From Prevotella lacticifex (GTDB taxonomy: Bacteria; Bacteroidota; Bacteroidia; Bacteroidales; Bacteroidaceae): DNA of 64,000 nucleotides. The position numbers and the translations under genes were made by a program. Shown here one piece after another: positions 10,852 to 62,212 of this stretch (position 1 is its first letter; each line of letters begins with the position of its first letter). The stretch is taken from positions 124,001-188,000 of the forward strand of contig NZ_BPTV01000001.1 of NCBI RefSeq assembly GCF_019973375.1. The letters are read 5' to 3'. The notes under the pieces were generated by a model. The model saw only the letters and a list, made by a program, of their open reading frames with translations. It did not search any database and was not told where the DNA came from.

Positions 10852-12399
10852 ATGCTTGTAAAAACCTATAGTGCAGCCGTTAACGGACTTGAGGTGACAA
10901 CGATCACCGTGGAGGTGAGCATGACGCGTGGTGTGCTCTACCACCTCACGGGTCTCGCCGATACCGCTGTCAAGGAGAGCCACGACCGTATTGCCGCCGC
11001 TCTGCTGAACAACGGGTATAAGTTTCCCGTGGCCGACATCACGGCAAACCTCGCACCGGCCGACCTACGGAAGGAGGGGGCGGGGTTCGACCTGCCTCTG
11101 GCCATAGCCATACTGGCATCGAACGAGAATGTCAATACCGATCTTTTGGATAAGTATATGCTTGTGGGCGAATTAGGCCTCGACGGTCATCTGCAGCCCG
11201 TCAAGGGTGCGCTGCCCATAGCCATCAAGGCGCGGGCCGAGCACTTCAAGGGACTCATCGTCCCGAAGGCTAACGAACACGAGGCTGCCGTCGTCGACAC
11301 TCTCGAGGTCTATGGTATGGACAATATCCTCGAGGTTATCGGGTTCCTCAACGGAACGTCGTCACCACAGCCTTGTGTCGTCGATACGCGAAAGGAGTTC
11401 TACGAGCATCAGTATAAATTCGACCTCGATTTCGCCGATGTGCGTGGTCAGGAAAATGTCAAGAGGGCCTTCGAGGTGGCTGCCGCCGGTGGACACAATA
11501 TCATTCTCGTGGGACCACCGGGCAGCGGAAAGAGCATGATGGCCAAACGGTTGCCGTCGATACTGCCACCGCTGTCGTTGGCTGAGAGCTTAGAAACGAC
11601 GCAAATACATTCCATCGCGGGAAAACTGAGTCGCGGTGAGGGACTGATATGCCAGCGCCCGTTCCGCAGTCCGCATCATACTATCTCGGAGGTGGCTCTC
11701 GTCGGCGGCGGAAATAATCCTATGCCGGGCGAGATAACGTTGGCACATAATGGCGTGCTCTTCTGCGATGAGCTGCCGGAATTCAACAAGCATACGTTGG
11801 AGGTGCTGCGCCAGCCCCTCGAGGACAGACAGATAACTATCAGCCGCGCCAAGTACACTGTCACATATCCATGCTCGTTTATGTTCGTGGCGTCGATGAA
11901 TCCATGTCCCTGCGGATATTATGGCGACCCTACCCACCACTGTGTGTGTACGCCGGGACAGATACAGCGCTACCTCTCGAAGATCAGCGGTCCGCTCCTC
12001 GACCGTATCGACATACAGTGCGAGATATCTGCACTGCCGTTCAGCGACCTGTCGAAAGCCGAGCCCGGCGAACCGTCGGCGAAGATCAGGGAGCGAGTAA
12101 TAGCGGCAAGAGCAATACAGACGGAACGCTTCAAGGGAGTAAAAGGCTTGCACTGCAATGCTCAGATGAGTGAGCGGATGATTCACCAGTATGCTGAGCC
12201 CGATGAGGCGGGACTGGCAATGCTGCGCACGGCTATGGAGCGTCTGCATCTCTCAGCACGCGCCTACAGCAGAATTCTGAAGGTGGCACGCACCATCGCC
12301 GACCTTGCCGGTGCCGAGAAGGTAGGAGCTGAGCATATCGCCGAGGCCATCGGCTACCGCCAGATGGACCGCAGCGACTGGGCCGAGAGGGGACTGTAG
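10852..12399 (+). CDS. comM: YifB/ComM-family Mg-chelatase-like AAA+ ATPase
   Basis: A 515-residue protein with an N-terminal ChlI/Lon-S5-like domain (about 1-165), an AAA+ domain with Walker A GPPGSGKSMM (about 221-230) and Walker B-type LFCDELPEF, and a C-terminal Mg-chelatase helix bundle. In naturally competent bacteria ComM is a hexameric helicase that extends branch migration of incoming DNA; in other bacteria the role is unclear. It follows the thioredoxin-fold gene by 33 nt. Identification of the family is firm; the role in competence is inferred. Confidence 0.9.
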   Translation: MLVKTYSAAVNGLEVTTITVEVSMTRGVLYHLTGLADTAVKESHDRIAAALLNNGYKFPVADITANLAPADLRKEGAGFDLPLAIAILASNENVNTDLLDKYMLVGELGLDGHLQPVKGALPIAIKARAEHFKGLIVPKANEHEAAVVDTLEVYGMDNILEVIGFLNGTSSPQPCVVDTRKEFYEHQYKFDLDFADVRGQENVKRAFEVAAAGGHNIILVGPPGSGKSMMAKRLPSILPPLSLAESLETTQIHSIAGKLSRGEGLICQRPFRSPHHTISEVALVGGGNNPMPGEITLAHNGVLFCDELPEFNKHTLEVLRQPLEDRQITISRAKYTVTYPCSFMFVASMNPCPCGYYGDPTHHCVCTPGQIQRYLSKISGPLLDRIDIQCEISALPFSDLSKAEPGEPSAKIRERVIAARAIQTERFKGVKGLHCNAQMSERMIHQYAEPDEAGLAMLRTAMERLHLSARAYSRILKVARTIADLAGAEKVGAEHIAEAIGYRQMDRSDWAERGL

Positions 12400-58009: not shown

Positions 58010-58345
58010 ATGCAAGAAACAAGACAAAACAGAATAGCAAGGCTCCTGCAGAAGGAGTTAGCAACAATCTTCCAGCAGCAGACAAGGCAGACTCACGGTG
58101 TCTTAGTGAGCGTCACAAGAGTGCGTATCAGTCCCGACCTGAGCATCTGCACAGCCTATCTGAGCATCTTCCCGTCGGAGAAAGCGGAGGATCTGCTGAA
58201 GAATATCAATGCCAACGAGAAGTCCATACGCTACGACCTCGGTCGCCGCGTACACAACCAGCTGCGCATCATTCCGGAGCTGCGATTCCATCTCGACGAC
58301 TCGCTCGACTACATAGAGCACATTGACGAACTGCTGAAGAAATGA
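58010..58345 (+). CDS. rbfA: Ribosome-binding factor A
   Basis: A 111-residue KH-fold protein that helps 16S rRNA 5'-end maturation of the 30S subunit. TRQNRIARLLQKELATIFQQ and VTRVRISPDLSICTAYLSIF are family-typical, as is the C-terminal NQLRIIPELRFHLDDSLDYI. It follows the methyltransferase by 4 nt and overlaps the permease gene by 4 nt. Confidence 0.95.
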   Translation: MQETRQNRIARLLQKELATIFQQQTRQTHGVLVSVTRVRISPDLSICTAYLSIFPSEKAEDLLKNINANEKSIRYDLGRRVHNQLRIIPELRFHLDDSLDYIEHIDELLKK

Positions 58346-59568
58346 ATTTCCCCCTATACATTGCAAAGAGGTATATCTTCTCGAAGAAGAGTACACACGC
58401 AATAAACATCATCAGCATCATCTCCGTCCTCGGCGTTGCCGTTGCCACCACTGCCCTTGTGGTTATCCTCAGTGGCTTCAACGGTTTCGCCGACCTCGTA
58501 GCGTCGTTCTTCACCAATTTCGACCCGCAGATAAAGGTGCAGCCGGCCGAGGGCAAGACGATGAAAGCCGACGACCCCAAGCTCCTGAAGCTGTGTTCGC
58601 TGCCTGAGGTTGCAAACTCATCGGCATGCCTTGAGGATCAGGCTCTTGCCGTATATCAGGACCACCAGCAGATGGTTATGATAAAAGGTGTCGACGACAA
58701 CTTTGCCGACCTCAGCGGGATAAAGAACATCCTCTATGGCAACGGCGACTACAGTCTGCATGCCGCCGACCTCGAATATGGCATTCCCGGCATCGGCCTG
58801 GCCCAGCTTATGGGTCTCGGCAGCCAGTGGCAGGGCTATATGCGCATCTACGCGCCACGCCGTCAGGGTCAGCTCGATATGAGTGATCCCGACAATGCCT
58901 TCACCGTCGACTCACTGTTGTCGGCAGGTGTGGTGTTTCAGGTCAAGCAAGGCAAATATGACCGCAACTACATGATTACCTCGCTCCACTTCGCCCAGAA
59001 GCTCTTCCGCAGTCAGGGCGAGGTGTCGTCGATGGAGTTCCGACTGAAAGCCGGTGAGGATGTCGATAAGGTCAAGGAGAAGATGAAGTCGCTCCTCGGC
59101 CCTTCCTACACCGTCAAAGACCGCTATGAACAGCAGGCCGATACGTTCAAGATTATGAAAGTGGAGAAACTCTTCGCATATATCTTCCTGACGTTCATCC
59201 TCGTCATTGCCTGCTTCAACATCATCGGCAGCCTGTCGATGCTCATTATCGACAAGAAATCCGACATAATAACCCTCCGCAACCTCGGTGCCACGAACAA
59301 GCAGATTCGCCGTGTGTTCCTCTTCGAGGGCAGGATGATCTCCGTCGCGGGAGCCGTTATCGGCATCGCCGTCGGACTGCTCCTTTGCTGGCTGCAACAG
59401 AGATACGGCATTGTGCGACTCGGCGACGAGGCCGGCAACTTCGTTATCAACGCCTATCCCATCAGCGTTCATCCCGTCGACATCCTCACAATCTTCGTCA
59501 CCGTCATTGCCGTAGGCTGGCTTGCCGTATGGTATCCGGTCAGGAGATTCACCACAAAGATAGAATAA
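58342..59568 (+). CDS. ABC transporter permease, LolC/LolE-type FtsX family
   Basis: A 408-residue inner-membrane protein: a helix near the N-terminus (INIISIISVLGVAVATTALV), a large periplasmic domain (about 50-265) and three C-terminal helices (LFAYIFLTFILVIACFNIIG). The start MNFPLYIAKRYIFSKKSTHA matches lipoprotein-releasing permeases. With an ATPase encoded elsewhere it would move lipoproteins from the inner membrane. Last gene of the aroQ unit; a strong terminator follows. Confidence 0.9.
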   Translation: MNFPLYIAKRYIFSKKSTHAINIISIISVLGVAVATTALVVILSGFNGFADLVASFFTNFDPQIKVQPAEGKTMKADDPKLLKLCSLPEVANSSACLEDQALAVYQDHQQMVMIKGVDDNFADLSGIKNILYGNGDYSLHAADLEYGIPGIGLAQLMGLGSQWQGYMRIYAPRRQGQLDMSDPDNAFTVDSLLSAGVVFQVKQGKYDRNYMITSLHFAQKLFRSQGEVSSMEFRLKAGEDVDKVKEKMKSLLGPSYTVKDRYEQQADTFKIMKVEKLFAYIFLTFILVIACFNIIGSLSMLIIDKKSDIITLRNLGATNKQIRRVFLFEGRMISVAGAVIGIAVGLLLCWLQQRYGIVRLGDEAGNFVINAYPISVHPVDILTIFVTVIAVGWLAVWYPVRRFTTKIE

Positions 59569-59801: not shown

Positions 59802-60071
59802 GCCCCGACGGGGCTGAATCGTCAATAACCCCGGACTAAGCGAGCGATAGCGAGCGCAGTCCGGGGAAAAGGAATGCAGAAGGAACAATCATTCAGTGCC
59901 TCGAAGACGCACAATAGCACGGAGTGCGCAAAAGCAAATATGTTTCTGCGCATTCCGCTAATCAACCTCTCCGAGGCTGGTCGTGGATATCTTGCGTCTA
60001 CGTTTACCCCAAGACTGCGGTCGCTGCGCTCCCTTAGTCTGGGGTTATTGAGAATTAAGCCCCCTCGGGGC
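59802..60071. repeat. Family A inverted-repeat element, full copy 3
   Basis: Two 65-bp arms, 59802-59866 and 60007-60071, are inverted copies of each other, and each contains its own hairpin (CCCCGGACT...AGTCCGGGG; CCCCAAGACT...AGTCTGGGG). The spacer has AGTGCCTCGAAGACGCACAA and CCGAGGCTGGTCGTGGATAT. Confidence 0.88.
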
Positions 60072-60318
60072 TTTGAGTTGGCTAAATTAAAATCGTGGTC
60101 TTCAGGTATGGTGAAGACGTAACCAATTTCAAGCCGTCGGGGCTTTGCGCTGGCTGAGTTAAAATCGTGGTCTTCAGGTATGGTGAAGACGTAACCAATT
60201 TCAAGCCGTCGGGGCTTTGCGTTGGCAGAGTAAAAATCGTGGCCTCCAGGGATAGTGAACCGTAGCCAACTTCAAGCCACCGGTGCTTTACGTTGGCAGA
60301 GTAAAAATCGCGGCGTCA
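60057..60318 (+). repeat. 72-bp tandem repeat array continuing from family A element
   Basis: Units start at 60057, 60131, 60203 and 60274 (74, 72 and 71 bp, then a partial). Each begins with a copy of the family A end (AAGCCGTCGGGGCTTTGCG) followed by TAAAATCGTGGTCTTCAGGT and GGTGAAGACGTAACCAATTTC. The array therefore extends the right end of the element. Confidence 0.85.
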
Positions 60319-60335
60319 GCGGTTTTCCCGGTTTT

Positions 60336-60461
60336 CCTTGCCGTGATGCAAGCCTGAGGAACGAAGGCTGTTTCTTCCCGGTGCCCACTTGCCGAAGCTT
60401 GCATCTAAACAAGTCGGCACCGGGAAGAAACATAGGGCGCAGCCCATGCATCACGGCAAGG
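60336..60461. repeat. 126-bp near-perfect hairpin
   Basis: Outer arms CCTTGCCGTGATGCA (60336-60350) and TGCATCACGGCAAGG (60447-60461) are perfect; inner arms 60371-60391 and 60410-60430 pair at 20 of 21 positions (TTTCTTCCCGGTGCC / GGCACCGGGAAGAAA). The loop is 18 nt. Too long for an ordinary terminator. Confidence 0.88.
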
Positions 60462-60483
60462 GTTTTTACAAGGGCTCTTTCAT

Positions 60484-60600
60484 TTAAGCCGACATAGAAG
60501 ACAATATGTCACAATGTAATCCGTTTAAATGAATGTGACGATAGGCACAAACGCCCGAAGGCGGTTTCTCAACCGCCAGGCTCTTAATACCTTTTGTCAT
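60484..60600 (-). other. Short frame carrying a copy of the transposase 5' end
   Basis: A 38-residue minus-strand frame starting MTKGIKSLAVEKPPSGV. Residues GIKSLAVEKP are the same ones that begin the ISAs1-type transposase on the plus strand at about 60759-60788, in opposite orientation. After EKP the similarity stops. This looks like the 5' end of a deleted or broken transposase gene. It is preceded by a perfect minus-strand promoter at 60710-60679. Confidence 0.5.
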
Positions 60601-60614
60601 ATATTTTTATTTTT

Positions 60615-60667
60615 GAAGAGGGGGTTTATGGTATTTGTGCGATTAGTGCACTTTGTGCCCCCTCTTC
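60615..60667. repeat. Inverted repeat GAAGAGGGGG/CCCCCTCTTC
   Basis: A 10-bp perfect stem with a 33-nt loop, lying in the 5' leader of the minus-strand promoter at 60679-60710. Confidence 0.7.
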
Positions 60668-60678
60668 TTTTTACACTG

Positions 60679-60710
60679 CAAAGATACAAAATAATTAGCT
60701 AATAACCAAA
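60679..60710 (-). promoter_or_regulatory. Strong minus-strand promoter pointing away from the transposase
   Basis: TTTG (60710-60707), 20-bp spacer, TATCTTTG (60686-60679). A transcript would start with the hairpin at 60615-60667 and then the short frame at 60600. Confidence 0.7.
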
Positions 60711-60770
60711 CAATTACGCACTTTTATCATCTCGGATGCAACTTTTTCTTCCCTATAAGGGATTAAGAGT

Positions 60771-61952
60771 TTGGCGGTTGAAAAACCGCATTTGCTGAGC
60801 CGAGATTTGTTAAATTTTATCCACTCAGTACCAGATTATCGTAGGATGAACAAAGGCAACTGTAAACACAAGTTGTCCGACATGCTTCTGCTGGTTATTT
60901 TGGCCAGGGCATGCGGCTGCGAGACTCGCAAGGACATTGTGGCCTTTGGAACGATCCATTTGAGCTACTTGCAAGACCACCTCGGCATTCTTGCTAAGGG
61001 ATGTCCGTCCGAGCCCACACTTTGCAGGATGGAAGGTGGAATCGACGACATTACTTTGGCCTCTTTGGTTTCGACATTATCACGAAAATACGTGTCGGAG
61101 CATGATGGAGCAAACAGACGGCACATTGCAATTGACGGCAAGTTCATGCTGGGTACGAAAATTGGCGACGGACGCTCTCCTGATGTTGTGACTGCTTTCA
61201 GCGTGACCGACCGGTTGCCGCTTGACACTGAAATGTGTGAGGTGAAAAGCAATGAGATAAAGGCTGTGCCCAAAATCATAGAGCGGGCTGACTACATGAA
61301 TGGATGCGTTATAACTGCGGATGCCATGTCGTGCCAAAGTTCTATCATCAAAGGCATCGTCGGGAAGGGAGCTGACTATCTTATTGCGCTGAAAGCCAAC
61401 CAGAAAGCAGCAAGATGGTCGGTAGAGGACGCTGTGCCTACGCTGCATCCTAACGACGAATGGAAGACGGAGTGGGAACTTGCCCACGGGAGGCTGTACC
61501 AACGCCGATGCCGTGTATATTCAGACATATCCGGTATCAAGGCGCTTGAAAAATTCCTCAATGTCAAGGCTGTGATTGCCATAGACACGCATACGATTGA
61601 AAAGAAAAGCGGAACGGAACAAAAACAGACGAGGTACTATATAACCAGTTTGGAAGAAAGGGCACAGACTTTGGATCGAATCAGCCGCATGCACTGGGGA
61701 ATCGAGAACAATCTCCATTGGACGCTGGATGCAAGAATGCGCCAGGACCGCACAAAGAGAAAAGAAACAAAGTCGGCCAGAAACTTGGACTCGATCCAGA
61801 AGCTTGTTTATATCATCTACACCATAGCCTCCAAAAAGCACCTGCCAGAGACCATCAGAAAGAGGAAAGAACTCTTTAAAGTCAAGTTCTCAGCCATTGC
61901 ATCTTACGCCAAGAACAGCTTGGCCTATGCTATTTCTCTTCTCAGTCTGTAG
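60771..61952 (+). CDS. ISAs1-family transposase
   Basis: About 393 residues from a TTG at 60771; the first ATG is 25 codons later, inside the conserved N-terminus. The DDE residues fit ISAs1/H-repeat-associated transposases: IDGKFMLGTK, GCVITADAMSC and MHWGIENNLHWTLDA. The N-terminal DUF4372-like block is FIHSVPDYRRMNKGNCKHKL with LSDMLLLVILARACGCETRK. A stop precedes the frame 5 codons upstream of the TTG, and the inverted fragment at 60600 has ATGACAAAA where this copy has a stop-containing sequence, so this copy may have lost its own start codon. Element ends were not found. Confidence 0.88.
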   Translation: MAVEKPHLLSRDLLNFIHSVPDYRRMNKGNCKHKLSDMLLLVILARACGCETRKDIVAFGTIHLSYLQDHLGILAKGCPSEPTLCRMEGGIDDITLASLVSTLSRKYVSEHDGANRRHIAIDGKFMLGTKIGDGRSPDVVTAFSVTDRLPLDTEMCEVKSNEIKAVPKIIERADYMNGCVITADAMSCQSSIIKGIVGKGADYLIALKANQKAARWSVEDAVPTLHPNDEWKTEWELAHGRLYQRRCRVYSDISGIKALEKFLNVKAVIAIDTHTIEKKSGTEQKQTRYYITSLEERAQTLDRISRMHWGIENNLHWTLDARMRQDRTKRKETKSARNLDSIQKLVYIIYTIASKKHLPETIRKRKELFKVKFSAIASYAKNSLAYAISLLSL

Positions 61953-62212
61953 AGGTCGTTAATTTTGAGGGATATATAATAAGCCCTAAGCTACATCCAG
62001 CTTGGGTAGGGGATACTTTATCCATTGGTCATCAGACCTTTACTACAAATAGCATTTCTGCGGTAAAGCGGAGACTGAGCAACAATCATGCCATGTCAGT
62101 CTAAATTTAAATGAAAGAACCGTAGGGTTTTTACCGGTTTTTGTCGGAAAAAGATGCCATTTCCTGACTTTGCGGTCTTTGCGGCTTTGCGAGAGGAAAT
62201 CACCGACGTGGC

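Follow-up and report, generated by a model that had tools for sequence, protein, structure and literature searches.

ERIC-type palindromic repeats are intergenic imperfect palindromes of about 127 bp that have been known for decades, and to our knowledge no enzyme has been shown to move them. The hairpins of IS608 lie on one strand, and mitochondrial double-hairpin elements are mobile and organellar, are shorter and enclose no nuclease. We know of no case in which a member of the PD-(D/E)XK superfamily serves as sole transposase. In REPIN/RAYT systems, as described in the excerpted parts of PMC3116915 and PMC6006769, scattered extragenic hairpins form inverted pairs with a spacer, show compensatory changes and have a single-copy cognate enzyme gene. 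REPs are 20-40 bp long and bear a GTAG- or CGTC-type tag (PMC3733652, in excerpt), IS200/IS605 elements such as IS608 carry folded subterminal structures at their ends (PMC6006769, in excerpt), and ERICs are named as an open case in the excerpted text of PMC3116915. GxxExxY is only a neighbour gene in the excerpt of PMC8934634, and a link between GxxExxY and mobility was not found in the literature searched.

The hairpin described here lies at 60336-60461 of the window (the whole 64,000-nucleotide stretch of Prevotella lacticifex DNA that was analysed) and is probably a solo, non-autonomous copy of a Prevotella mobile element family whose only gene encodes a GxxExxY nuclease. This mobile element family is new, and by analogy its layout would be that of REPIN/RAYT without the RAYT. 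Scattered inverted hairpin pairs, compensatory changes and a single-copy cognate enzyme gene are common to both; here, however, the enzyme is a PD-(D/E)XK rather than an HUH tyrosine enzyme, each half is itself a roughly 130-bp hairpin built of a closing stem, two small hairpins and one long one, and the gene belongs to a unit that a site either has or lacks entirely. The short length and tag of REPs are not seen, as the hairpin measures 126 bp and has GGTTTT flanks, with CGTC in some inner ends (GCGTCAGC) and not in all. Folded end structures are shared with IS200/IS605, but the hairpins here form an inverted pair, and the gene between them is no Y1 TnpA. ERICs are likewise long intergenic imperfect palindromes, but for the present family a parent element is seen in complete form, together with a candidate gene for the enzyme, and mitochondrial double-hairpin elements resemble it, as far as the excerpted description goes, in being scattered and hairpin-forming. 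The enclosed gene is a member of GxxExxY/PDDEXK_3 (TIGR04256, PF13366), although most members examined are without such hairpins. A link is thereby made between a palindromic repeat family and a parent element with a single small gene, and a testable role emerges for GxxExxY, whose family name refers to nothing but a motif.

The original prediction of a near-perfect 126-bp hairpin was correct. The 15-bp outer arms pair perfectly as a closing stem on the plus strand (60336-60350 with 60447-60461), inside which lie small hairpins (60351-60369 and 60435-60445) and a long inner hairpin (60370-60431) whose arms pair at 21 of the first 22 positions, a structure indicated by folding, alignment and compensatory changes. 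The segment 60316-60481 has a folding energy of -82.5 kcal/mol against a shuffled mean of -52.4 (z = -6.97), a value equalled by none of 200 shuffles. As an extent, 60336-60461 is right for the hairpin and too short for the element, which starts at about 60310 with an inner end on the plus strand, GCGGCGTCAGCGG followed by two GGTTTT blocks (60310-60335), conserved among copies with differing flanks. The absence of a T run, also claimed at the outset, was not borne out: the T-rich outer-end block GGGTTTTTAC (60460-60469, plus strand) begins within the outer arm and runs on beyond it, and the family has conserved T-rich GGTTTT blocks to either side.

The outer end is split by a 1655-bp insertion sequence with inverted ends (60470-62124, plus strand), which we take to belong to the ISAs1 family and whose transposase ORF (60771-61952) matches DDE_Tnp_1 and DDE_Tnp_1_assoc. 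The ten bases of GGGTTTTTAC resume, identical, at 62125-62134 and run on as CGGTTTTTGTCGGAA (62135-62149, plus strand), the missing outer end of the hairpin element, which matches the outer end of other copies and coincides with a weak model hit at 62045-62151. Given the 10-bp duplication and the split outer end, the insertion sequence entered the hairpin element and is not its source; it is a passenger and no part of the element proper. An FtsX/MacB-like permease gene (58342-59568) adjoins the hairpin on the other side. Model and similarity searches detected no partner hairpin for the window copy, and a promoter and terminator scan gave nothing above chance.

Two further repeats were seen beside this copy. 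At 60059-60320 a unit of 70-75 bp (AAGCCGTCGGGGCTTTGCG...GTGGTCTTCAGG) is repeated about three times in tandem up to the hairpin, and the same unit precedes several other hairpin copies in the genome. Another repeat, some 200 bp long with CCCCGGACT/AGTCCGGGG-like and CCCCAGACT/AGTCTGGGG-like sequence at its borders, lies upstream of the hairpin both in the window (59838-60050) and at L045 (1650-1860) and represents a second intergenic repeat family.

The hairpin is neither unique nor decaying in its pairing. Its own genome has it at 35 distinct places (45 search rows, ten of which are the opposite strand of the same palindromes), and a covariance model with strict filters places the family in 29 of 398 congeneric genomes, with pairing kept. 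A unique structured RNA, considered as a candidate, was ruled out by this repetitiveness. The proposed arm search with TTTCTTCCCGGTGCC gave exact matches in seven of the 35 aligned copies; this aligned set consists of 31 hairpins from G000 and four from G002, with the partial copies L024, L025, L041:2519 and L049, as well as L029, left out. Conservation extends past the hairpin: GCGnnnCAGC..GTTTTnnnGGTTTT precedes it as an inner end, GGTTTTnnnGGTTTTTGTC follows it, and beyond these conserved ends the flanks differ except in copies within shared longer repeats. A 44-pair structure accounts for the alignment with 91.3% of cells paired. Neighbouring ORFs differ from copy to copy, and both orientations occur. 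A scan across named genomes yielded 13 stretches, 12 from uncultured Prevotella and one from Hallella mizrahii, with own-genome records possibly left out. The own genome also has a second hairpin type (B), at about 20 places, the window copy being of type A.

In distant congeners the sequences of the arms differ and the architecture is the same, and the hairpins form divergent pairs in which the minus strand bears the left member and the plus strand the right. Such inverted hairpin pairs in extragenic space are a REPIN-type feature. The gap within a pair is 29-146 bp at 15 of the 17 loci read (261 bp at L104 and 597 bp at L068); the partner is partial at L065, L107 and L113 and rearranged at L070. 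In the own genome seven of the 35 type-A copies have a divergent B partner within 1 kb, in a pair search that dropped matches of fewer than 60 aligned bases; as one query in it was reversed, the orientation of the A copies was taken from a separate comparison. The outer ends of the elements match and thus constitute terminal inverted repeats, and the two ends of one element are more alike than the ends of different elements (permutation p 0.0002, 26 elements). The interpretation in the original prediction is partly supported. Among its readings, an element end pair came closest: the hairpin is indeed one end (type A), but it is the complete form that has two such ends, facing outward. Of a replication or recombination site, also offered there, analyses aimed at other questions gave no sign.

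Exchange or nesting of ends is hinted at in two places. The hairpins at L157 (1155-1303) and L163 (1012-1162) are 85% identical though their genes have clearly diverged, as if ends had been swapped, and L156 contains a third, weaker hairpin (1296-1457) inside a complete element, as if one element had entered another.

In H. mizrahii the hairpin pair encloses an ORF that matches PF13366 with 100.8 bits (cut-off 22) and TIGR04256 GxxExxY with 102.1 (cut-off 35), and at L107 a 24-residue fragment of the GxxExxY gene, 83% identical, remains between the hairpins. Residues D82, E92 and K94 are invariant in 14 aligned branch proteins (see below) and can be read also in a 31-row alignment; these D/E/K columns are presumably the catalytic residues of a PD-(D/E)XK nuclease. 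Three other approaches to the protein contributed nothing further: a single-sequence AlphaFold model of the nuclease (pLDDT 37) was left unused, two sequence matches in the PDB (E 0.07 and 0.11) were disregarded, and PADLOC returned a weak match (E 0.0012) to a CARF-PDDEXK profile.

The association of the hairpins with the GxxExxY gene is strong and concerns one branch of this gene family. Among 30 PF13366 loci of relatives the pair was found at L138 (G002) only, with one weak model match each at L119 and L139. Around the 30 loci of the 398 congeners that best match the H. mizrahii protein, strict end motifs lay on both sides at eight, and on both sides at 15 when model hits or looser motifs were added, making 16 with H. 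mizrahii itself. In a maximum-likelihood tree of 50 GxxExxY genes these 16 two-sided cases and three partial ones, in which a single end is recognisable or the pair is displaced (L155, L158, L166), form a single branch of 19, and this hairpin pair is absent from the 12-member sister branch and from the remaining 19 genes. Support is 87/92 for the branch of 19, which is below the usual threshold, and 100/99 for the branch together with its sister and L139; five of the 16 two-sided cases rest partly on weak model hits (E 0.01-0.22), and the sister branch has some weak one-sided matches. The near-identical L171-L173 of the sister branch have loose end-like motifs beside the gene on both sides, too close for a hairpin. 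Ten PF13366 loci without a tblastn match to the H. mizrahii protein (L119, L120, L123, L127, L129, L135, L141, L142, L147 and L148) were kept off the tree, and the pair is present in none of them; L138 was omitted because L149 covers that gene. Inverted repeats were also counted without the model, requiring at least 14 matched positions within 500 bp of the gene; they lay on both sides in 13 of 19 genes of the branch, 0 of 12 of the sister branch and 2 of 19 of the rest.

Outside the branch, L132 and L144 have unrelated inverted repeats on both sides (14+14 and 19+19 matched positions) that give no model match and are possibly a second association.

Genomes with a branch gene are enriched in hairpins, 11 of 18 being positive against 18 of the 380 others (Fisher 9e-10), where genomes whose match was unfetched or unplaced (e.g., G324, G233 and G133) were counted among the 380. 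With laxer filters 13 of 15 branch genomes were positive, compared with none of seven chosen genomes without the branch. In G061 the hairpins detected are the flanks of the gene itself, which makes it a weaker case in the enrichment, and some of the matches under the laxer filters are likewise such flanks. Beyond the genus, a match at E 1e-40 occurred in one of 393 genomes of the order, without an end motif or model hit, so far as sequence comparison goes the GxxExxY branch seems almost confined to the genus. G047, a genome from another family of the order, has twelve PF13366 matches, an apparent amplification, and its loci L119 and L143 are without the hairpin pair.

Comparison of orthologous sites revealed the unit as a whole to be present or absent. 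A unit of about 968 bp is present in G217 (L161) and G122 and is missing from the same site in G279, whose flanks (88% and 85% identical) meet directly, the left one running to 11511 and the right one starting at 11512. In G217 two ORFs converge tail to tail, with the unit at the 3' end of the regulator-like one, and G122 has the same arrangement at 90% identity. The heptamer ACTTCGT stands on both sides of the unit in G122 and singly in G279, and G217 has ACTTCGT and ACTTTGT. In the same interval G394 contains a GxxExxY element of another lineage plus about 1.5 kb of extra sequence. At a second orthologous site (flanks 90% and 93% identical) G122 has a gene-carrying form (L158) and G217 a gene-less pair (L105); the right hairpin of G217, when inverted, shares 81% identity with the left hairpin of G122, and the right border is common to both, G122 retaining only the last bases of the right end. 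These site patterns would suit a mobile or at least excisable unit, although each alone could also be a deletion, and the empty site in G279 in particular could be a precise one. Among 27 elements no general target duplication was found beside the end motif, the 7-bp ACTTCGT repeat being one case, and flanking palindromes were strong at two of the 27 (L068 and L159), too few for a target preference. The type-A locus L065 is common to G298 and G062; H. mizrahii matches only the flank beyond the hairpins there, so that it provides no empty site.

The complete element measures about 0.8-1.3 kb; at each end a hairpin of some 160 nt faces outward, and one GxxExxY (PD-(D/E)XK) gene lies between them. 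Its outermost bases read approximately GGGTTTTnnnGGTTTTTGT on the right, with the inverse on the left, and both hairpins run from inner to outer on the strand that ends at the element border. According to the mechanism we propose, the nuclease may recognise the folded ends, as single-stranded DNA or RNA, and cut or join them, possibly cutting near GGTTTTTGT; this would move the element itself and, in trans, also the copies derived from it. Pairs without the gene and lone hairpins scattered between genes would then be deletion or one-ended derivatives, the solo hairpins being products of movement in trans or remnants of recombination. Movement of the element by the nuclease is what we infer; our confidence is moderate for its role in the new element family and strong for the architecture and the association. 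Somewhat doubtful, yet well within reach, is the wider notion of a class of transposable elements with a GxxExxY PD-(D/E)XK enzyme as the sole enzyme acting on large folded ends; in its boldest form the ends would be transcribed outward to the border as structured RNA, and nuclease and hairpin RNA would make up a compact system. End-encoded RNA is known from TnpB, the layout of which is comparable.

Function as RNA, regulatory or as a nuclease partner, with the spread of the hairpin being secondary, is unlikely. Seventeen pairs are altered on both sides, compared with 9.0 in shuffled alignments and at most 12 when the pairing is slid, and the corresponding cells number 72 against 22.3. Single mismatches in the stem are G.T rather than A.C (38 versus 10; 25 hairpins versus six, p 0.0009), an excess on the border-ending strand that goes beyond the roughly 1.8-fold expected from base composition, and GCTTGC occurs in the central part of 34 of 66 hairpins. 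The G.T bias suggests that the border-ending strand folds in use, as RNA or as single-stranded DNA, and single-stranded DNA of the same strand would give the same compensatory and G.T pattern; related hairpins are, moreover, not independent in these counts. One strand is favoured energetically in 63 of 66 hairpins, but composition-matched shuffles equal this difference, which was therefore dropped as evidence for RNA. The variation of flanking ORFs and their orientations also speaks against an RNA role, as does Rfam 15, in which no family reached the gathering score for the hairpin and only weak microRNA- and snoRNA-like matches appeared below threshold. That the hairpin is a long transcription terminator of the ordinary kind is barely credible: a T run does follow the stem, but related copies keep a fixed long architecture beside ORFs in both orientations, sequence is conserved on both sides of the stem, and neither the divergent pairs nor the occupied and empty site would be expected of a terminator. 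The terminator scan did not return the hairpin, though its loop limit excludes one so long.

Other enzymes have also to be considered as movers. A MITE of an ordinary DDE insertion sequence, with GxxExxY captured once as cargo, would account for the terminal inverted repeats, the intergenic scatter and the possible 7-bp target repeat of one case, and at L041 an A-B pair of the own genome, 1.8 kb apart, does enclose an ISL3 transposase gene, two identical copies of which lie near other hairpins. These ISL3 copies are, however, a separate multi-copy gene that is inside one pair only, and among the spacers examined the parent elements found carry GxxExxY apart from that one pair. The ISAs1-like neighbour was rejected as mover, as it sits inside the hairpin element with its own ends and its own duplication. 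The whole GxxExxY branch is flanked, and chance capture would fit this only if the gene serves the element, so we consider a DDE origin improbable. Lower still should be placed the chance that these are REP/REPIN elements moved by an HUH Y1 tyrosine transposase (RAYT or IS200/IS605 TnpA) with GxxExxY as passenger. Inverted, scattered hairpin pairs and one enzyme gene per genome are REPIN-like (PMC3116915, in excerpt), and two Y1 genes are present in the own genome; but eight stretches around Y1 genes contained no hairpin, namely in G000 (L083, L084), G002 (L085, L086), G009, G001, G010 and G004 (L087, L088, L075, L082), and among the 26 of 35 genomes with Y1 genes only G000 and G002 were hairpin-positive in the DNA search. 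The gene between the pairs is GxxExxY, not Y1.

The own genome and the hairpin-rich G329 and G298 speak against an element family moved by its GxxExxY nuclease, as they have no branch gene (best E 2e-10, 9e-13 and 2e-24, against 4e-47 or better for the branch), and movement of hairpins there is unexplained by that gene. With scattered hairpins and no branch gene, the own-genome hairpins are probably relics.

The hairpins also leave marks on genome assemblies and are unevenly distributed. Six contigs of G002 (C6, C81, C177, C178, C208 and C270) end 37 bases inside a hairpin, which indicates that hairpins break assemblies. In the own genome, the segment C2:780001-865000 (L041-L043, L026 and L027) is a hot spot with twelve type-A hairpins in about 80 kb; its coding density is low in parts (0.52 at L042 and 0.49 at L026), and it contains the three identical ISL3 transposase genes.
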